DNA of 64,000 nt. Origin: Bacillota bacterium (GTDB lineage: Bacteria > Bacillota_I > Bacilli_A > Erysipelotrichales > Erysipelotrichaceae). The DNA is taken from contig JAHFCO010000004.1 of assembly GCA_023249475.1 (NCBI GenBank), forward strand, positions 1 through 64,000, given 5' to 3'. The notes beneath the pieces are model-generated. The model was not told the origin of the DNA, ran no database searches, and saw only the letters and a program-made list of their open reading frames with translations. Positions 12,351 to 61,767 of this stretch are shown piece by piece. Position numbers and translations under genes: made by a program. The stretch's first letter is position 1; the number at the start of each line of letters is the position of its first letter.

Positions 12351-13088
12351 CTACAGTACGTCGACAATCAGTTTCAAAAGCAACAACCCCAACACCCCGA
12401 CCAAGGCCGGACGGATGACTTTCGCCCCGTGCTTGATCGCGTAGATCGACCCCAAACGGCTGCCGATGATCGAACAGAGCGCGGCGGGGAGGGCGAGATA
12501 GAAGAGGACGTTGCCGGAAAGCAGGAACACCGTCATCGCCGCCAGGTTGCTGGCGAGGTTGACCACCTTCGCCGTCCCGGAAGCGCGCGTATAATCGATA
12601 TGCATGAAGGTGACATAACAGAAGATCAAGAGGCTTCCCGTACCGGGTCCCAGAAACCCGTCGTAGGTGCCGATCACCAACGCGATGAGTATCCCTAAGG
12701 GCAAATTGACATCCATGGTCTGGATTTCGGTCTTCGCCTTGCGCGTCAGCAGGAAGGCCGCCATCATGGGGATCACCCCGATCAGGATTTTCTTCAGATA
12801 AATGTCCTCGACCAACAAGGTCAGCGACGAACCGATCGACGAACCGATCCAGGCGAAAATCGCCGACAAGAGGGCGAGTTTACGAAGATAGCGGTCGTTG
12901 CGGACATACTGGAACGTCGCCATGATCGCGCCGAAACTCGATGAAAACTTATTCGACCCCAACGCTTGGTGCATCGGGATCCCCGCCATGGTGTAGGCGG
13001 GTAAGGAAATCAACCCGCCGCCGCCGGCGATCGAATCGATGAACCCGGCCAAGAAGACCAAGGGTGCGACAATCAGTAGTTTCTCCAT
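12351..13088 (-). CDS. TauE/SafE (TSUP) family anion permease
   Basis: A 245-residue polytopic membrane protein with about eight hydrophobic segments. The two TSUP repeat signatures are 'LAGFIDSIAGGGGLISLPAYT' near the N-terminus and 'GTYDGFLGPGTGSLLIFCYV' in the second half. Family members move sulfite, sulfonates or other sulfur-containing organic anions. No sulfur-metabolism gene adjoins it to refine this. Confidence 0.86.
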   Translation of the reverse strand: MEKLLIVAPLVFLAGFIDSIAGGGGLISLPAYTMAGIPMHQALGSNKFSSSFGAIMATFQYVRNDRYLRKLALLSAIFAWIGSSIGSSLTLLVEDIYLKKILIGVIPMMAAFLLTRKAKTEIQTMDVNLPLGILIALVIGTYDGFLGPGTGSLLIFCYVTFMHIDYTRASGTAKVVNLASNLAAMTVFLLSGNVLFYLALPAALCSIIGSRLGSIYAIKHGAKVIRPALVGVLGLLLLKLIVDVL

Positions 13089-13159
13089 ACCTTCCCCGCC
13101 TTTTGGACACTATCATACCATAGTGAAAACATGCGTGCACATTCCTCGGTGAATTTTGG

Positions 13160-13165
13160 TATAAT
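13160..13165 (+). promoter_or_regulatory. Extended -10 promoter of mscL
   Basis: TATAAT preceded by TGG (TGn extended -10), 22 bases before the mscL start codon, with an AGAGAGG ribosome site between. No good -35 is visible, as expected for an extended -10. Confidence 0.6.
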
Positions 13166-13186
13166 TTCCTAAGAGAGGTACAAACT

Positions 13187-13588
13187 ATGAAAATCGTAAA
13201 GGAATTCAAAGAATTCGCAATGCGCGGAAACGTCATCGACCTGGCCGTCGGGGTCGTCATCGGGGGGGCGTTCGGGAAGATCGTCACGTCGTTGGTGAAC
13301 GACATCCTGATGCCGGTCATATCGGTCATCACGGGCGGCGTCAATTTCTCCGAACTGAAACTCGTCCTCGTCGAGGCGCAAAGCGAAACGGTCGCCGAAG
13401 TCGCCTTGAAATACGGGAACTTCCTTCAAAACATCGTCGACTTCCTGATCATCGCGTTCTCGATCTTCGTCGTCATCAAGTTCATGAACTCGACGAAGAA
13501 GAAGGTCCAGGAAATCCCAGTTCCGAAACTCCCCGATCCGCAGATCGCCTTACTCGAAGACATTCGGAACTTATTGCGTAAGAAATAA
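13187..13588 (+). CDS. mscL: Large-conductance mechanosensitive channel MscL
   Basis: A 133-residue protein with the MscL signature '[37 protein letters not shown]' (N-terminal helix and TM1), TM2 '[16 protein letters not shown]' and a cytoplasmic C-terminal helix. It forms a homopentameric stretch-gated pore that releases solutes on hypo-osmotic shock. Length is standard. Monocistronic, with its own promoter and terminator. Confidence 0.97.
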
Positions 13589-13593
13589 GCAAG

Positions 13594-13614
13594 AGGGCAT
13601 TTGCGCCCTTTTTC
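13594..13614 (+). terminator. Terminator of mscL
   Basis: AGGGC/GCCCT stem (13594-13598 with 13605-13609) followed by a run of T, 5 bases past the mscL stop and 15 bases before the mupG start. Confidence 0.8.
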
Positions 13615-13628
13615 TCTGGAGGAGAAGC

Positions 13629-14690
13629 ATGTTGGAAATCGGTTTTTCAATCTACTCATCAAGCGGCCGGGACATTAACACCCGAATCCTGGACCGGGTC
13701 TGGGATGCGGATTTTACCTACGCGTTCACATCCTTGCACATCCCCGAGGAAGCCACGCCCGAGCTGCGTCAGGAACAACACGACCTCCTGCAGTCCTTGC
13801 GCGATTTGGATGTCAACGTGATGGCGGACATCGGTCCGCGGACCTTGAGCGACATGAAACTTTCGTCGTTTGAAGATCTATCCATGTATCCGATCACGCA
13901 CATGCGGGTGGATTACGGATTCAACCTCGAACAAATGGCGAAAATCAGCGAACACTACATTTTGGTCGTCAATCCATCCACCTTCGCCGAGGAAGATTTC
14001 TTCACTTTGCTGGAACTCGGGGTGAAGCGCGACCGGATCGTCGCCTGCCATAATTTCTATCCGAAAGAATGGACGGGTCTATCCTTGAAACGGGTATCCG
14101 AAAGCAATCGTTTCTACAAGAACCAAAACATCAAGACGATGACGTTCATCGCCGGGGATGCGCTCAAGCGCGGTCCGGTCCATCAAGGGTTGCCGACGGT
14201 GGAAACGATGCGGCATCTGGCCCCGTTGGAAGCGGCGTTGATGCTACGCGAAGAAACCTTCACGGATGTCGTCTTGGTCGGCGACATCGACTTGACGGAG
14301 AAGAGTTGGGAAGACTTGATCGCCTTGTCCCACGGGTATGTCCGTCTCCCCTGCACCCTCGATCCGCAATACAAGCATCTTCTCGGCGTCATCCAGCATG
14401 ACCGGATCGATTCCAGCGATTTCCTGATCCGATCCCTCGAATCGCGCATGTATGCCTCGCGCGGTCATCATGTCGAAAGCGTCGGGGCGACCGGGATCGA
14501 AGCCGGAACGATCTTGATCAGCAACGAAGACTATTCACGTTACTCCGGGGAGTTCGAAATCGCCCGCAGGGTACTTGGCGACGATCCGCGGAAAAACAGA
14601 ATCGGTCAAGTATCGACCGAAGCCCTGTATCTTCTTCCCTACATCACCAACGGCATGGGATTCATGTTGGTGGAAGAATTGGATAATTAA
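13629..14690 (+). CDS. mupG: MupG family protein (DUF871), 6-phospho-N-acetylmuramidase
   Basis: A 353-residue protein of the DUF871/MupG family: N-terminal TIM barrel ('EIGFSIYSSSGRD', 'CHNFYPKEWTGLS', 'AGDALKRGPVHQGLPTVE') and C-terminal cyclophilin-like domain ('GYVRLPCTLDPQYKHLLG', 'NRIGQVSTEALYLLPYI'). In Staphylococcus aureus MupG hydrolyses MurNAc-6P-GlcNAc taken up from wall turnover. The adjacent murQ supplies the next step, which strongly supports the call. GGAGGAG lies 7 bases upstream of the start. Confidence 0.88.
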   Translation: MLEIGFSIYSSSGRDINTRILDRVWDADFTYAFTSLHIPEEATPELRQEQHDLLQSLRDLDVNVMADIGPRTLSDMKLSSFEDLSMYPITHMRVDYGFNLEQMAKISEHYILVVNPSTFAEEDFFTLLELGVKRDRIVACHNFYPKEWTGLSLKRVSESNRFYKNQNIKTMTFIAGDALKRGPVHQGLPTVETMRHLAPLEAALMLREETFTDVVLVGDIDLTEKSWEDLIALSHGYVRLPCTLDPQYKHLLGVIQHDRIDSSDFLIRSLESRMYASRGHHVESVGATGIEAGTILISNEDYSRYSGEFEIARRVLGDDPRKNRIGQVSTEALYLLPYITNGMGFMLVEELDN

Positions 14691-14739
14691 TTCAATATTA
14701 TAGATGTTATTCGCATATTCTATTTATTTCCGTCTTCCC

Positions 14740-14751
14740 ATTGTGTACAAT
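14740..14751 (+). promoter_or_regulatory. Possible operator between mupG and murQ
   Basis: The palindrome ATTGTGTACAAT (5-bp arms, 2-base centre) sits 24 bases before the murQ start in the 85-base gap after mupG. It could be a regulator site or a chance palindrome. Confidence 0.25.
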
Positions 14752-14775
14752 GAACGTGACCATGGAGGAGAACAC

Positions 14776-54159: not shown

Positions 54160-54187
54160 TTTTCACCCGACGTCTTGGTGGTATAAT
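54160..54187 (+). promoter_or_regulatory. Promoter of the fluoride-responsive antiporter gene
   Basis: -10 TATAAT (54182-54187) with a weak -35 TTTTCA (54160-54165) at 16 bases. The riboswitch begins at the expected start of transcription. Confidence 0.68.
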
Positions 54188-54192
54188 ACTGA

Positions 54193-54252
54193 CGGGCATG
54201 AAGTACTCCCATAGCTCTGCTTAAACCGCCAAAGGCTGATGACTTCTACGAT
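54193..54252 (+). ncRNA. Fluoride riboswitch (crcB motif)
   Basis: The leader reads GGGCATGAAGTACTCCC, then a linker, AAACC, GCC-AAA-GGC, and TGATGACTTCTACG. It matches the crcB aptamer layout: helix AUGAAGU with ACUUC(U), a GCC/GGC hairpin, the conserved CUGAUGACUUCUAC 3' strand, and a GGG/CCC pseudoknot. The gene downstream is a cation/proton antiporter, a known fluoride-riboswitch target class. The 3' strand is also part of a terminator stem, giving a direct on/off mechanism. Confidence 0.86.
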
Positions 54253-54278
54253 CTTTGGATCGCGGTCACGGCTTTTTT
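54235..54278 (+). terminator. Riboswitch-controlled intrinsic terminator
   Basis: GCTGATGAC (54235-54243) can pair with GTCACGGC (54265-54272), leaving one bulged A. The stem encloses an inner CGATC/GATCG hairpin and is followed by seven T residues. The 5' arm lies in the aptamer's conserved 3' strand, so the two folds exclude each other. Confidence 0.75.
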
Positions 54279-54294: not shown

Positions 54295-55473
54295 ATGTTG
54301 CTGAGTCTCGCCTTGATCTTGATCACTTCCCTTTTCCTGGGCGGGGTCATGAACCGTTTAAAACTCCCCGCCTTGTTGGGGATGTTGTTGTCGGGGATTC
54401 TGTTGGGTCCCTTTGTCTTCAACCAAATCTCCCCCAAATTGTTGGACATCTCGTCGGAAATCCGTCAGATCGCCCTGATCATCATTTTATTTCGTGCCGG
54501 TCTATCGCTAGATCTTAGCGACCTGAAGAAAGTCGGCCGGCCGGCGTTCTTTCTCTGCTTTGTGCCCGCGACTTTTGAAATCTTGGCCGTCACATTTCTT
54601 GGACCTTTACTTTTGGGCTTGTCGCCCTTGGATGCGGCGATCTTGGGATCGATCCTTGCAGCCGTTTCACCGGCCGTCGTCGTCCCCCGCATGCTTCATT
54701 TGATGGAGGCGGGCTATGGTCGCGACCATCGGATCCCCCAGATGATCATGGCGGGTGCCTCGGTCGACGACATTTATGTCATCGTCGTTTTCACCGGATT
54801 GATCGCCCTATCGACCGGCGGAACCTTCGGTTGGCTGACCTTGACCAACGTCCCGCTCGCCGTCATCCTCGGAGCGACGATCGGTTATCTGCTGGGTTGT
54901 GGTTTGGTTGTTTTCTTTAAAAAAGTGCATATGCGGGATACCGTGAAAGTCATCCTGTTGTTGAGCGCCAGCTTCTTTCTTGTCAGTCTGGAAAGCGCAC
55001 TCGTCGGTAAGTTCGCCTTCTCCGGCTACATCGCCGTCATGGCGTTGGGGATCGCGATCCTCAAAAACTACGCGATCCTGGCGAAGCGTTTGTCCGGGAA
55101 ATTCTCGAAAGTCTGGGTCGCCGCGGAACTGTTCCTCTTCGTGATGGTCGGTGCCGCCGTCCAAATTTCAAGTCTTCAGACCGTCGGTTACCTAGCGGTC
55201 GCCCTGATCCTCCTCGCGCTTGTGGTCCGAAGCCTGGGGGTCTTGTTGAGTCTATCCAAAACCTCGCTCACCTCCAAGGAGAAACGCTTCTGCGTCTATG
55301 CCTATCTACCCAAAGCGACCGTCCAGGCCGCGATCGGAAGCATCCCGCTTTCATTGGGACTGGCTTCGGGGAACACGTTGCTCAGTGTCGCCGTCTTGTC
55401 CATCTTGATCAGCGCCCCCTTGGGAGCCATCCTGATCGACATGAACTTTGCTCGACTTTTACAGAAAAAATAG
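54295..55473 (+). CDS. Monovalent cation/proton antiporter, CPA2 (KefB/NapA-like)
   Basis: A 392-residue membrane protein with about 11-12 helices: 'LALILITSLFLGGVMNRLKLPALLGMLLSGILLGPFVF', 'RQIALIIILFRAGLSLDLSDLKKVGRPAFFLCFVPATFEILAVTFLGPLLLG', 'AAILGSILAAVSPAVVVPRML', 'AGASVDDIYVIVVFTGL'. The ASVDD acidic pair marks the ion-binding site of CPA-type exchangers. There is no C-terminal TrkA/RCK domain. The fluoride riboswitch in its leader suggests a role in fluoride stress, perhaps by pH or ion balance or by moving fluoride itself (inference). Confidence 0.88.
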   Translation: MLLSLALILITSLFLGGVMNRLKLPALLGMLLSGILLGPFVFNQISPKLLDISSEIRQIALIIILFRAGLSLDLSDLKKVGRPAFFLCFVPATFEILAVTFLGPLLLGLSPLDAAILGSILAAVSPAVVVPRMLHLMEAGYGRDHRIPQMIMAGASVDDIYVIVVFTGLIALSTGGTFGWLTLTNVPLAVILGATIGYLLGCGLVVFFKKVHMRDTVKVILLLSASFFLVSLESALVGKFAFSGYIAVMALGIAILKNYAILAKRLSGKFSKVWVAAELFLFVMVGAAVQISSLQTVGYLAVALILLALVVRSLGVLLSLSKTSLTSKEKRFCVYAYLPKATVQAAIGSIPLSLGLASGNTLLSVAVLSILISAPLGAILIDMNFARLLQKK

Positions 55474-58180: not shown

Positions 58181-58402
58181 TCAACCGCCGCCGACCGGCG
58201 GGAAGAGGGCGATGACATCGCCGTCTTTGACGCTGTCCCGGGGTTGACTGTGCATCCCGTTGATCAACAGGATGGCGACGTCGCTTGCGGGGATGTTGAG
58301 TTCATGCAGGATGCTGTCGGCATCTCTAAAGTTCTCCGGCTCGAAAAACAGGATCTTCCCGCGGTTCTCCCGTAATGTCGCAAACAATCGGATTTCGATC
58401 AT
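58181..58402 (-). CDS. MoaD/ThiS-family sulfur carrier
   Basis: A 73-residue ubiquitin-like protein: 'MIEIRLFATLRENRG...' and C-terminal 'DGDVIALFPPVGGG' with the diglycine end that is adenylated and thiocarboxylated. Placed directly after the tungsten AOR gene, it probably gives sulfur to the pyranopterin dithiolene of the tungsten cofactor. AAGGAGG lies 5 bases upstream, right after the terminator T-run. MoaE is not in the window. Confidence 0.88.
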   Translation of the reverse strand: MIEIRLFATLRENRGKILFFEPENFRDADSILHELNIPASDVAILLINGMHSQPRDSVKDGDVIALFPPVGGG

Positions 58403-58446: not shown

Positions 58447-60246
58447 TTATAGCAGATCCAGTCTCTTCAATGTTGCTTCGGTCGGGAAGGCATCGACCCA
58501 TCCGCGGACTTCGTAGTACTGCGGCAAGGTGATGTTCAACTTGCTGACTTCGCCTTTGGACGGACCACTGGGAATCGGTTCATTCAAAATGCGTTTCGGT
58601 AAGGTATCGTCCCCGGCGACCATGCCGGCTTCCTTATTGAACAGACGTTCGATGTTGTAGATGCGTTCTCCAACCTTCAAAACGCCTTCCACGTCGTAGT
58701 TCGTTCCCGTCGCCGCGTTCAACAATCCCGCATAATCCGGAGCGCCGAGGGCGAAGGAGGTGAACAGACACATCCCGCTGGAGTCGATGACCGCGGTCAA
58801 GTCTTGGAAAATCTTGGTCCACGTGGCTTTCCCTTCGGTCGCCAAACGGTTCAGAGGTTCAGGCAAGCCGAGGACTTCGGGCGAAATCATATAGCCGCGT
58901 ACGTGGCAACCGCCGCGATTGCTGGTGGCATAGGTGATCCCGATGCCTTGGATACCGCGTGCATCATACGCCGGCATTTCTTGTTTCTTGACGCTCATCG
59001 AGAATTCGGGCACGCCGTAATGATCGCACAGGCGGTAGGATCCGCTCGCCATCAAACGACCCAGCTTGTTGTCGCCGTAGCCCATATGTTTCGTCCATTC
59101 GACGATCGCTTTCGCGCTTCCCCAAACCAAGGGGACGCCATCGCAATCTTCGTCTTTGAGATAGCCTTTTTGATAGAGTTCCATGGCGGCCGCGATGGTC
59201 GTCGGAGCACCGATGGCATCCAGACCCAATTCGTTGCACCAGTAGTTCGCTTCGTTGATGGCTTCGAGGTCTTCGACACCGCAGTTGGCGCCGTAGGCCC
59301 AGATCGGTTCGTATTCCGGACCGCCGACCGTCTTCCCGTTCAGGTTGATGACGCGTCCGCATCCGATCGGACAACGGTGGCAATAGCCCTGTTTCACAAG
59401 ATACTTTTCTTTCAAGGTTTCACCGCTGGTCTTGTCCGCATCGGCGAAATAGGATTCCTGCCAGTTACGGGTCGGGAACGAACCGATGTTGTTGACGATG
59501 TTGACCAATACCGCGGTCCCGTACGTCGGCAAGCCTTGTCCGGTGACGCCGTTTTCGCGGATCTTGCGTAGCGATTCGGTGACGACTTCACGGAGTTTTT
59601 CTTTATCGAACGGTTCGATGACGGTACGCGTTGAGGCACAGACGATGGCTTTCAGCATCTTGCTTCCCATGACGGCACCGACGCCGCTGCGTCCCGCTGC
59701 ACGGTCGGCTTCGTTCATGATGCAAGCCAATTCGAACAGTTGTTCGCCGGCCGGACCGATGTTGAGAACGGAAGCGTCTTTCCCGTGTTTTTCTTTCAAG
59801 ATTTCTTCGACGACCGTGGATTCCTTGCCCCAGAGGTCTCCCGCCGGCAGCAATTCGACTTTATCGTCATGGATGCTCAGGTAAACCGGAGCGTCCGCTT
59901 TCCCTTCGACGATGACCGCGTCATAGCCCGCGTATTTCAAACGCGCGCCCCAGACGCCGCCCGAATTGGAACTTGCAATCATCCCGGTCAGCGGGGATTT
60001 CGTCACGACCATGTATCTTCCTCCGGTCGGTACGTTGCATCCCGTCAAGGGACCGTTAATGAAAACCAACTTGTTGGCGGGTGACAGCGGGTCGACTTTC
60101 GCGACGCCTTCGTCATACAGGATCTTCGTCCCTAAGCCACGTCCCCCGATGAACTTTTTGGCCAAGGCTTCGTCGAGGATTTCGGTTTTGATGGATTTCT
60201 CCGTCAAGTTGACGCGTAACATCTTCAGATTGTAGGATGTTGTCAT
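58447..60246 (-). CDS. aor: Tungsten-dependent aldehyde ferredoxin oxidoreductase
   Basis: A 599-residue AOR-family enzyme starting MTTSYNLKMLRVNLTEKS. N-terminal 'KKFIGGRGLGTKILYDEG' and 'GRYMVVTKSPLTGMIASSNSGGVWGARLKYAGYDAVIVEG' are AOR_N. 'YCHRCPIGCGRVINLNGKTVGGPEYEPIWAYGANCGVED' provides the 4Fe-4S cysteines, and 'AVIDSSGMCLFTSF' carries the fourth Cys. These enzymes oxidise aldehydes to acids and reduce ferredoxin using a W-bis-pyranopterin. AAAGGAGG is 6 bases upstream. Its leader contains a Moco/Tuco riboswitch and terminator. Confidence 0.94.
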   Translation of the reverse strand: MTTSYNLKMLRVNLTEKSIKTEILDEALAKKFIGGRGLGTKILYDEGVAKVDPLSPANKLVFINGPLTGCNVPTGGRYMVVTKSPLTGMIASSNSGGVWGARLKYAGYDAVIVEGKADAPVYLSIHDDKVELLPAGDLWGKESTVVEEILKEKHGKDASVLNIGPAGEQLFELACIMNEADRAAGRSGVGAVMGSKMLKAIVCASTRTVIEPFDKEKLREVVTESLRKIRENGVTGQGLPTYGTAVLVNIVNNIGSFPTRNWQESYFADADKTSGETLKEKYLVKQGYCHRCPIGCGRVINLNGKTVGGPEYEPIWAYGANCGVEDLEAINEANYWCNELGLDAIGAPTTIAAAMELYQKGYLKDEDCDGVPLVWGSAKAIVEWTKHMGYGDNKLGRLMASGSYRLCDHYGVPEFSMSVKKQEMPAYDARGIQGIGITYATSNRGGCHVRGYMISPEVLGLPEPLNRLATEGKATWTKIFQDLTAVIDSSGMCLFTSFALGAPDYAGLLNAATGTNYDVEGVLKVGERIYNIERLFNKEAGMVAGDDTLPKRILNEPIPSGPSKGEVSKLNITLPQYYEVRGWVDAFPTEATLKRLDLL

Positions 60247-60274
60247 ACGTTCCTCCTTTAAGAACTTTTCAAAC

Positions 60275-60301
60275 AAAAAAACAAGGGTTGCGACCCTTGT
60301 A
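60275..60301 (-). terminator. Riboswitch terminator in the AOR leader
   Basis: ACAAGGGT/ACCCTTGT perfect stem with a 4-base loop, followed by seven T residues on the minus strand, 29 bases before the AOR start codon and after the riboswitch. A terminator in a leader implies attenuation. Confidence 0.85.
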
Positions 60302-60412
60302 ATGAACATTCTTGGGCCGCACAAAAATCATGCAGTCCCTTTCCAAGCGGGAGGCCGTTCCGTTTCCAGAACAACCCATCGGTCGGTTTCCGTTTGAGGA
60401 AATGCGACTCGG
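60302..60412 (-). ncRNA. Moco/Tuco riboswitch
   Basis: The minus-strand leader contains TTCCGAGTCGC, a TTTCC-loop-GGAAACC hairpin, a GTTC/GAAC hairpin, GGCCTCCCGC, then a short loop and GGGACTGC. These follow the order of conserved blocks of the molybdenum-cofactor RNA motif (CCGAG, GGAAACC, GCCTCCC, GGGACTGC). Upstream of a tungsten enzyme the ligand is probably the tungsten form of the cofactor. The -10 TATAAT at 60428-60433 and the terminator at 60275-60301 frame it. Confidence 0.83.
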
Positions 60413-60427
60413 AACTTATCTACTTCT

Positions 60428-60450
60428 ATTATAAGCGCTTTCAGGCGCTT
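60428..60450 (-). promoter_or_regulatory. AOR promoter -10 with overlapping inverted repeat
   Basis: Minus-strand -10 TATAAT (60428-60433). Directly upstream is the inverted repeat AAGCGC-CTGAAA-GCGCTT (60433-60450) in the spacer. The -35 region is weak, so an activator or repressor site here is plausible. Confidence 0.6.
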
Positions 60451-60484
60451 GTGAATAGACGAATTATTGTTTTTCGAATTTTTT

Positions 60485-60667
60485 TTATCCGCCGCATCCG
60501 CCTTCGATCAAGTGGATCAGGATCACATCGTAACCCAGGCTGGCGGCGATGTCACACGCCCGCTTCCCCTCATCGTTTCGTGCGTTGCGATCCGCACCTT
60601 CCGCCAATAATCTCTTGACGGATTCCAGGTCTTTTCGAAGCACCGCCTCCATCAATGGCGTGTTCAT
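60485..60667 (-). CDS. Single-ankyrin-repeat small protein
   Basis: A 60-residue protein starting MNTPLMEAVLRKDLESVKRLLAEGADRNARNDEGKRACDIAASLGYDVILIHLIEGGCGG. This is about one and a half ankyrin repeats. It ends with Cys-Gly-Gly, unusual for an ankyrin and reminiscent of sulfur-carrier tails. The ATG overlaps the radical SAM stop (ATGA), so it is cotranscribed with the AOR maturase. Function unknown; a small adaptor for the tungstoenzyme pathway is a guess. Confidence 0.78.
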   Translation of the reverse strand: MNTPLMEAVLRKDLESVKRLLAEGADRNARNDEGKRACDIAASLGYDVILIHLIEGGCGG

Positions 60668-61716
60668 ATGCACTCCACGAACCCTCGTGTCCAGAGACAA
60701 TCGGCACAGGACGGGTTTTGCCCTTTACAGTCGCATTGGGAATCGTTGATATAGTCGCAGGAATCCACCAGGTCGCAATCGGGGCAGGACGGAAAGCGGT
60801 TGGCCAGGTTCTGCAATCGTAAATCGCGGTATTGCCGGGTGTCCCAGATTTCCTTCATCGTGTTTTGATTGACGTTGCCGTAATGATACGGATACACCTG
60901 CTTTCTGCGACCAAAGACATATTCTACGGAAGGATGGGCGAAACGATAGCAGGAGGAAACATTCCCGTCCGAATTGATCGTCATCGTCCCGTCTTCGATG
61001 AAGACGCATTTACGCTCCGTCTTGAGTTCGATGTTGGGGAACTTGACCTGGAGTTGGTTGCTTAAACAAAGGTTCAACCATTCGTTGCGTTTCTGCTTCA
61101 TGCGCTGGTTATCGTGCAACGCATAGACGATCTTGTCCGCATCCTCCGCATTTTGGGGCAACAGATTGGACAAGACGAGTTTCATGAATCCGTGTTTGTG
61201 TAAAAGCGGGATCAAACCGGACACATCGTCGATATTGTATTCGCTCAACACCAGTTGGGCGATGAGGAACGGACGATGCAATCCCAGTTCGGTGCGACGT
61301 TGGATGAGTTTTGAGACATTGTCGAACAATCGGGTGAGGTCGAAATTACGGATGACTTCGAACGTGCCGGGAAGCCCGTCGACGGAAATGATGACGCGCT
61401 CGAAACGCCTCGCCAAGGTATCGATCGTTTCATCGCTCCAGTAAAAGGCATTGGTCGTAATACTTAGGGTCACATCGGGTAAATCCTTAACGATCTGATT
61501 GAAGCGGGTATGGGTCGTCGGTTCCCCGATGCCACCCAAAACGATCTCTTCAAGGTCCGGATTGGCATGCAAGTCGCGCAAACATCGCTCCAAGGTTTCC
61601 GGACTCATTTCATGCAGTTCCCCACCCCAATTCTGACGAAAACAACTGATGCAATTCAGATTGCACCGTTGCGTCAATTCAAGGTAGACTTTACGTAACG
61701 TTAGTTTTTCAAGCAC
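60664..61716 (-). CDS. Radical SAM/SPASM maturase of tungsten oxidoreductases
   Basis: A radical SAM protein with 'LELTQRCNLNCISCFRQNWGGELHEMSP' (CxxxCxxC) and 'IVLGGIGEPTTH', and a SPASM-type C-terminus rich in Cys ('FPSCPDCDLVDSCDYINDSQCDCKGQNPSCADCLW'). It resembles the family of tungsten-cofactor oxidoreductase maturases (Cmo-like) found beside AOR genes. The start was set at GTG 61716 with GAGGTG 6 bases upstream, giving 350 residues. The upstream ATG 61740 lies across the -10 box, so it cannot be on the transcript from that promoter. Confidence 0.85.
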   Translation of the reverse strand: MLEKLTLRKVYLELTQRCNLNCISCFRQNWGGELHEMSPETLERCLRDLHANPDLEEIVLGGIGEPTTHTRFNQIVKDLPDVTLSITTNAFYWSDETIDTLARRFERVIISVDGLPGTFEVIRNFDLTRLFDNVSKLIQRRTELGLHRPFLIAQLVLSEYNIDDVSGLIPLLHKHGFMKLVLSNLLPQNAEDADKIVYALHDNQRMKQKRNEWLNLCLSNQLQVKFPNIELKTERKCVFIEDGTMTINSDGNVSSCYRFAHPSVEYVFGRRKQVYPYHYGNVNQNTMKEIWDTRQYRDLRLQNLANRFPSCPDCDLVDSCDYINDSQCDCKGQNPSCADCLWTRGFVECI

Positions 61717-61738
61717 GGTATTCACCTCAAGCGCTTTC

Positions 61739-61767
61739 ATTGTACCATAGTTGTAGTTTGATCACAA
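61739..61767 (-). promoter_or_regulatory. Promoter of the radical SAM maturase gene
   Basis: Minus-strand -35 TTGTGA (61762-61767), 17-base spacer, -10 TACAAT (61739-61744). The palindrome AAGCGCTT (61729-61736) follows at the start of transcription. Confidence 0.7.

Follow-up and report, generated by a model that had tools for sequence, protein, structure and literature searches.

In the 64,000-nucleotide stretch of DNA analysed here (the window), the minus strand encodes an aldehyde ferredoxin oxidoreductase (AOR), the large subunit of a tungsten oxidoreductase, preceded by a leader with an aptamer and a terminator and followed by a small MoaD/ThiS-like gene. In order of transcription, the features of the locus are:

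60664..61740 (-), radical SAM/SPASM protein, tungsten cofactor oxidoreductase maturase-like (TIGR04317, 337 bits, E 1e-100, cut-off 380)
60428..60455 (-), sigma-70-type promoter (-35 TTCACA 60455-60450, -10 TATAAT 60433-60428)
60430..60443 (-), cre-like palindrome TGAAAGCGCTTATA, overlapping the -10 box, 13/14 to TGWAARCGYTWNCW
60320..60426 (-), Moco/Tuco aptamer RF01055, without the P3 stem (cmscan, 50.3 bits, E 4.7e-9)
60411..60416 (-), aptamer stem P1, 5' strand AGUUCC (cmscan alignment, folds)
60334..60339 (-), aptamer stem P1, 3' strand GGGACU (cmscan alignment, folds)
60314..60322 (-), relay strand GUGCGGCCC (folds, ensemble energies, linker shuffles)
60289..60296 (-), antiterminator 3' strand GGGUCGCA, overlapping the terminator 5' arm and loop (folds)
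60274..60300 (-), intrinsic terminator ACAAGGGU/ACCCUUGU and U tract (hairpin 60300-60281)
60252..60258 (-), Shine-Dalgarno AAGGAGG of the AOR gene (sequence)
58447..60246 (-), AOR/tungsten oxidoreductase large subunit (WorL), 599 amino acids (Pfam AFOR_N 266 bits, AFOR_C 474 bits)
58181..58402 (-), MoaD/ThiS-like protein, 3' of AOR (Pfam ThiS 42 bits)

The AOR frame comprises PF02730 and PF01314 and starts at 60246. A longer reading of 625 amino acids, with a TTG start at 60324 inside the leader, was rejected because the Pfam match and the ribosome site favour the ATG at 60246. The nearest named relatives are the metagenome genomes UBA12416 (AOR 98% identical) and UBA4808 (83%), both labelled Erysipelotrichaceae. 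The MoaD/ThiS-like gene adjoins AOR in every relative checked and, by position and family, is the equivalent of WorX. The radical SAM/SPASM gene lies upstream of the riboswitch-AOR unit and is kept in three genera; it is a conserved member of the neighbourhood outside riboswitch control.

The promoter (TTCACA-16-TATAAT) matches the consensus at 11 of 12 positions, and the RF01055 match begins 1 nt past its -10 box. Taken by itself within the window, the cre-like site is below significance. An TGWAAGCGCTTWATAAT-like sequence, however, occupies the equivalent position in 9 of 9 related AOR promoters, and the host genome encodes CcpA-like regulators (scores under the CcpA cut-off); catabolite repression of the CcpA type, acting through the palindrome at the -10 box, is possible. 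Elsewhere in the window, a fluoride riboswitch (RF01734, 37.2 bits, 54185-54255, (+)) precedes a gene judged by eye to encode a 392-amino-acid cation/proton-antiporter-like membrane protein (54295-55473) and not crcB.

The initial annotation had placed a Moco/Tuco riboswitch ahead of a tungsten AOR, at 60275-60433. We searched the whole window with cmscan (Infernal), and the RF01055 match at 60426-60320 (-), covering model positions 1-135, exceeded the curated threshold (50.3 versus 36 bits), in agreement with that call. Its interval is correct as well, because it begins at the -10 box and ends with the U tract. The conserved blocks of the Moco RNA that it described are seen in the alignment, where the GAAA (GNRA) tetraloop on P4, a feature of the class, is present and a conserved UUGGAAAGG stretch precedes the P1 3' strand; both are unvarying among relatives. 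The terminator that it noted before the AOR start corresponds to the terminator-like hairpin ACAAGGGUCGCAACCCUUGU-UUUUUUGUUU at 60300-60281 (-), between aptamer and AOR, and the PF02730/PF01314 and ThiS matches 3' of the riboswitch bear out the AOR and the moaD-like gene. It was also right that the evidence for the ligand of this class is genetic and not from direct binding, which could not be demonstrated in the 2008 study (PMC2408646). Its remark that the class seldom accompanies tungsten enzymes of Firmicutes did not hold, since RF01055 scored over threshold at 25 of the 80 AOR loci nearest in sequence (most from Clostridia/Bacillota), 23 of these in AOR orientation. Two further loci fell just under threshold (L022, 31.8 bits; L048, 29.1 bits). 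Clostridia and tungsten genes were already among the hosts and targets listed in 2008 (PMC2408646). Among genomes of the host's own family the class turns up sporadically, with matches over cut-off in 12 of 146. The points that go beyond the initial annotation are the P3 criterion, a second copy at a tup-moe-moa operon, and a relay expression platform that predicts ON control.

The P3 columns of the RF01055 alignment are empty in the window aptamer, making it Tuco-type. P3-less RNAs occur almost exclusively with genes for the tungsten cofactor or molybdopterin synthesis, and tungsten genes are found in 17 of 19 of their host organisms (PMC2408646). The absence of P3 as a sign of Tuco is a correlation; when P3 was deleted from the E. 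coli RNA, control was lost and specificity did not switch (PMC2408646), and in the literature searched we found no class member with a preference for Tuco over Moco. The AOR leaders of Blautia (L032:2816-2941 and L046:2816-2941) carry a P3-like hairpin (GCCGA..UCGGC) and so seem to depart from the association of tungsten genes with P3-less RNAs.

We looked at tungsten use in the host genome (2.09 Mb, 96% complete). It encodes two AFOR_C proteins, and a search of it for a PF00384 molybdoenzyme found none. Its one other RF01055 copy, likewise P3-less, precedes tupA-, tupB- and tupC-like genes, two moeA genes, moaA, moaC and a MOSC gene. Among NCBIfam models, TupA and TupB rank first or second for the transporter genes, with scores under the curated cut-offs, and the tupC-like gene has a generic ABC ATPase match only. 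The neighbours of both copies (AOR and a MoaD-like gene here, tup-moe-moa there) fit the class, and gene content suggests that the host uses the tungsten cofactor. In the leader of the tup operon, the ribosome site GGAGG lies within the P1 3' strand, and locking P1 lowers its exposure from 0.37 to 0.17 (0.68 to 0.17 in G034). This is the known OFF platform, in which a ligand-stabilized P1 hides the ribosome site, and the tup copy is thus predicted to be OFF.

Several other features of this genome (G000) were noted. MoaE was not found in it by PF02391 or with a relative's MoaE, nor in G034; G000 still has moaA, moaC, moeA and the MoaD-like gene. The second AOR-family gene (G000:C16:380-2335 (-), L132) shares about 30% identity with the window AOR and has no RF01055 match nearby. 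At L003 the two moeA genes are distinct and adjacent, the second (12838-14763, (+)) being a fusion of MoeA with a C-terminal domain (PRK14498, 747 bits, above cut-off). Adjoining the tup-moe-moa operon is a lysine riboswitch (RF00168, 86 bits, L003:7727-7894 (-)) before a 472-amino-acid amino-acid-permease-like gene.

We then turned to the expression platform of the window leader. The 9-nt relay strand (60322-60314) can pair with the P1 3' strand or with the terminator 5' arm and loop. The first pairing gives an anti-P1 helix (GGG-A-CUGCAU 60339-60330, which includes the P1 3' strand, with GUGCGGCCC 60322-60314); the second gives an antiterminator (UGCGGCCC 60321-60314 with GGGUCGCA 60296-60289). 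Anti-P1, antiterminator and terminator (60300-60281) are mutually exclusive, and anti-P1 additionally excludes P1; the antiterminator is compatible with P1, and the two do not compete. The dual complementarity of the linker was equalled in 1 of 1000 dinucleotide shuffles. A long G-U-rich antiterminator candidate for the window RNA proved false, and the helices named here were used instead.

Folding of successive prefixes of the growing transcript gave, in order, P1; anti-P1; P1 with antiterminator; and anti-P1 with terminator. For the RNA ending at the terminator, the ensemble energy of anti-P1 with terminator was -54.2 kcal/mol versus -48.2 kcal/mol for all P1-locked structures, these being secondary-structure energies that leave out the tertiary contacts of the aptamer. 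The ligand-free RNA is therefore predicted to terminate. When P1 was locked and the terminator incomplete, nearly all of the RNA was in the antiterminator (-47.2 of -47.4 kcal/mol); with the terminator complete, the antiterminator and the terminator of the window RNA were close in energy (-47.5 versus -48.1 kcal/mol). The order of emergence favours the antiterminator, and hence ON. As the two helices are about equally stable once complete, ON in the window RNA requires that the antiterminator forms first and persists. For G137 and G117, both g8 genomes, the antiterminator under the same lock was stabler than the terminator by 3 to 5 kcal/mol, and for G139 by up to 4 kcal/mol; in G310, G311, G034 and UBA10612 it ranged from 2 kcal/mol less to 1 kcal/mol more stable.

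The relay is retained in nine AOR leaders from 9 genomes of three genera, and the dual complementarity of the relatives' linkers was equalled by 0-8 of 1000 dinucleotide shuffles. Two-sided changes affect two pairs in anti-P1 and two pairs in the terminator. The covariation is limited because the P1 3' strand is identical across all nine leaders, an invariance that would be expected if this strand serves two helices. We make no claim of covariation for the antiterminator, because its register is ambiguous in G139 and G310. In UBA10612, a more distant member of Clostridiales, analogous helices are built from different letters, and direct pairing of the P1 3' strand with the terminator 5' arm (-9.4) equals the relay (-9.7) in strength.

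As a contrast set, we took the five terminator-type leaders of the host's family that do not precede AOR. In four of them (L004, L006, L007 and L009), direct pairing joins the P1 3' strand to the terminator 5' arm (-8.0 to -13.1; -5.7 in L008), and none of the five had a relay score better than -4.0. In the AOR leaders, the relay scored -12.4 to -12.9 and the direct pairing about -6.5. The terminator-type uptake and biosynthesis leaders of the family thus mostly appear to have the direct (OFF) layout. Terminator-less leaders were tested for masking of the ribosome site under P1 lock. The lock exposed the site in L032, L046, L038 and G066, and changed it little or not at all in L023-L028 and L033 (P1 was poorly registered for L023-L025); translational ON control in terminator-less leaders is only suggestive.

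From the observed sequence, homology, exclusive helices and conservation, we infer a ligand, a sign and a kinetic order for the window RNA. In the model that we consider probable, it is a Tuco-type riboswitch of the Moco class that switches transcription of AOR and its MoaD-like partner ON. As prefix folds suggest, the aptamer would fold first while the polymerase transcribes the leader. Binding of the tungsten cofactor would lock P1 (60416-60411/60339-60334) and leave the relay GUGCGGCCC free; the free relay (60322-60314) would pair with the emerging GGGUCGCA (60296-60289), pre-empting the terminator so that AOR is transcribed. When the cofactor is lacking, the relay would invade P1 to form anti-P1, the terminator at 60300-60281 would form, and transcription would end. 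AOR would thereby be produced only when its cofactor is present. The aptamer itself is of a known kind; what appears to be new is the predicted ON platform.

An ordinary Tuco OFF switch, in which the ligand-bound aptamer permits the terminator and AOR is off at plentiful cofactor, as in the E. coli moaA leader, is in our judgement unlikely. The published tests that we found all show OFF control (PMC2408646), the P1-locked window RNA keeps a terminator about as stable as the antiterminator, and a weak direct pairing of the P1 3' strand with the terminator (-6.8 kcal/mol) is present. However, OFF control needs an unliganded state that prevents termination, and here the unliganded minimum contains the terminator. 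The window leader does not show the known OFF layout, in which ligand-stabilized P1 either covers the ribosome site or vies with an antiterminator built on the P1 3' strand, because its antiterminator fits together with P1 and its unliganded fold already contains the terminator. The relay layout, moreover, is kept in the nine AOR leaders and missing from the uptake and biosynthesis leaders compared.

The sensing of Moco, or indifference to molybdenum versus tungsten, in place of Tuco would agree with the correlative nature of the P3 rule, with the loss of control and unswitched specificity upon P3 deletion in E. coli, and with the P3-like hairpin of some AOR leaders (L032, L046). We hold it to be quite improbable, given a window aptamer without P3, a 96% complete genome in which PF00384 was not found, and tungstate-type transporter genes under the other RF01055 copy. 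That the aptamer is degenerate or a chance match, and AOR controlled by the promoter and cre-like site alone, we regard as very improbable: 50 bits is modest for RF01055, the best relatives reaching 91 bits, but the E value is 4.7e-9, the junction nucleotides are invariant among relatives, and equivalent elements lie upstream of AOR across Bacillota.

We compared the transcriptional ON switch proposed here with known systems. Like the E. coli moaA leader, an RF01055 RNA for which OFF control was shown, the window RNA has P1, P2, P4, P5, the conserved junction, the GAAA tetraloop and a cofactor-related gene downstream; unlike it, the window RNA lacks P3 and targets an enzyme that uses the cofactor, and its platform is a transcriptional relay, predicted to be ON, instead of an OFF platform masking the ribosome site (PMC2408646). 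With the Tuco RNAs of Clostridia and Deltaproteobacteria it shares the absence of P3 and a host genome that has Tup-like transport as well as tungsten enzymes. A terminator follows the aptamer in some published examples too, and terminator and ribosome-site platforms occur together in some organisms; a relay antiterminator or ON switch is absent from the main text of that study, and the window's host group (labelled Erysipelotrichaceae) is not among the groups listed there (PMC2408646). In the open-access literature searched, no ON-type Moco or Tuco switch was found. The genes resemble the Class I tungsten oxidoreductase described with WorX, which has one large-subunit gene and a ThiS-like gene after it; that classification mentions neither riboswitches nor an adjacent radical SAM protein, and the window locus has both (PMC13328260).

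With a predicted relay ON leader at AOR and a P1-masked ribosome site at tup, ON and OFF control appear to coexist in one genome. The second Tuco RNA would stop tungstate uptake and cofactor synthesis at plentiful cofactor. We tentatively suggest, as a possibility open to considerable doubt, a joint reading in which one aptamer class acts with opposite signs in one genome (ON at the tungsten enzyme, OFF at tungstate uptake and cofactor synthesis), and control of uptake has, in a related genus, been taken over by a small antisense RNA that begins with a riboswitch and pairs through its hairpin loop with the 5' end of tupA mRNA. Knowledge of the Moco/Tuco class rests largely on one OFF-type leader from E. 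coli, and on an unstable ligand for which binding assays are difficult. If a tungsten enzyme is indeed under a natural ON switch and the cell also has an OFF switch of the class, ligand and metal specificity could be tested cleanly, as the two leaders would be expected to shift oppositely with tungstate. Such a pair would also show how bacteria keep from producing a large iron-sulphur enzyme when the cofactor for it is missing. In gut microbes, tungsten oxidoreductases are thought to serve in aldehyde detoxification, which gives their control a wider interest.

A category of MOCO riboswitches that act in antisense has been described (PMC9943018). Unlike its members, the window copy acts in sense; the category is relevant to further copies in relatives. 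In G139 (UBA4808) and G310, a second P3-less RNA lies divergent to tupA (L125:3632-3810 (+) and L127:7390-7570 (-), respectively); it has a terminator of its own, and no gene in the sense direction follows it directly. Its hairpin loop AACCCCAACACU is the exact complement of the predicted 5' end of tupA mRNA (12 bp, -19.5 kcal/mol), and between the two genomes the hairpin and target are identical and the intervening spacer has diverged. Only a small change in ribosome-site exposure is predicted (from 0.41 to 0.17 in one case, from 0.25 to 0.19 in the other). This RNA is possibly a riboswitch-controlled antisense small RNA acting on tupA, a lead from two genomes only; it differs from the described category in adjoining its putative target and in its proposed pairing via the hairpin loop. 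No report of such loop-to-5'-end pairing by an antisense MOCO riboswitch was found in the literature searched. In G145, an RF01055 copy (L134:2257-2375 (+)) lies on the strand opposite to the flanking tup/moa/AOR-like genes and has downstream a terminator that pairs directly with P1; it is possibly an antisense-acting Moco/Tuco riboswitch.
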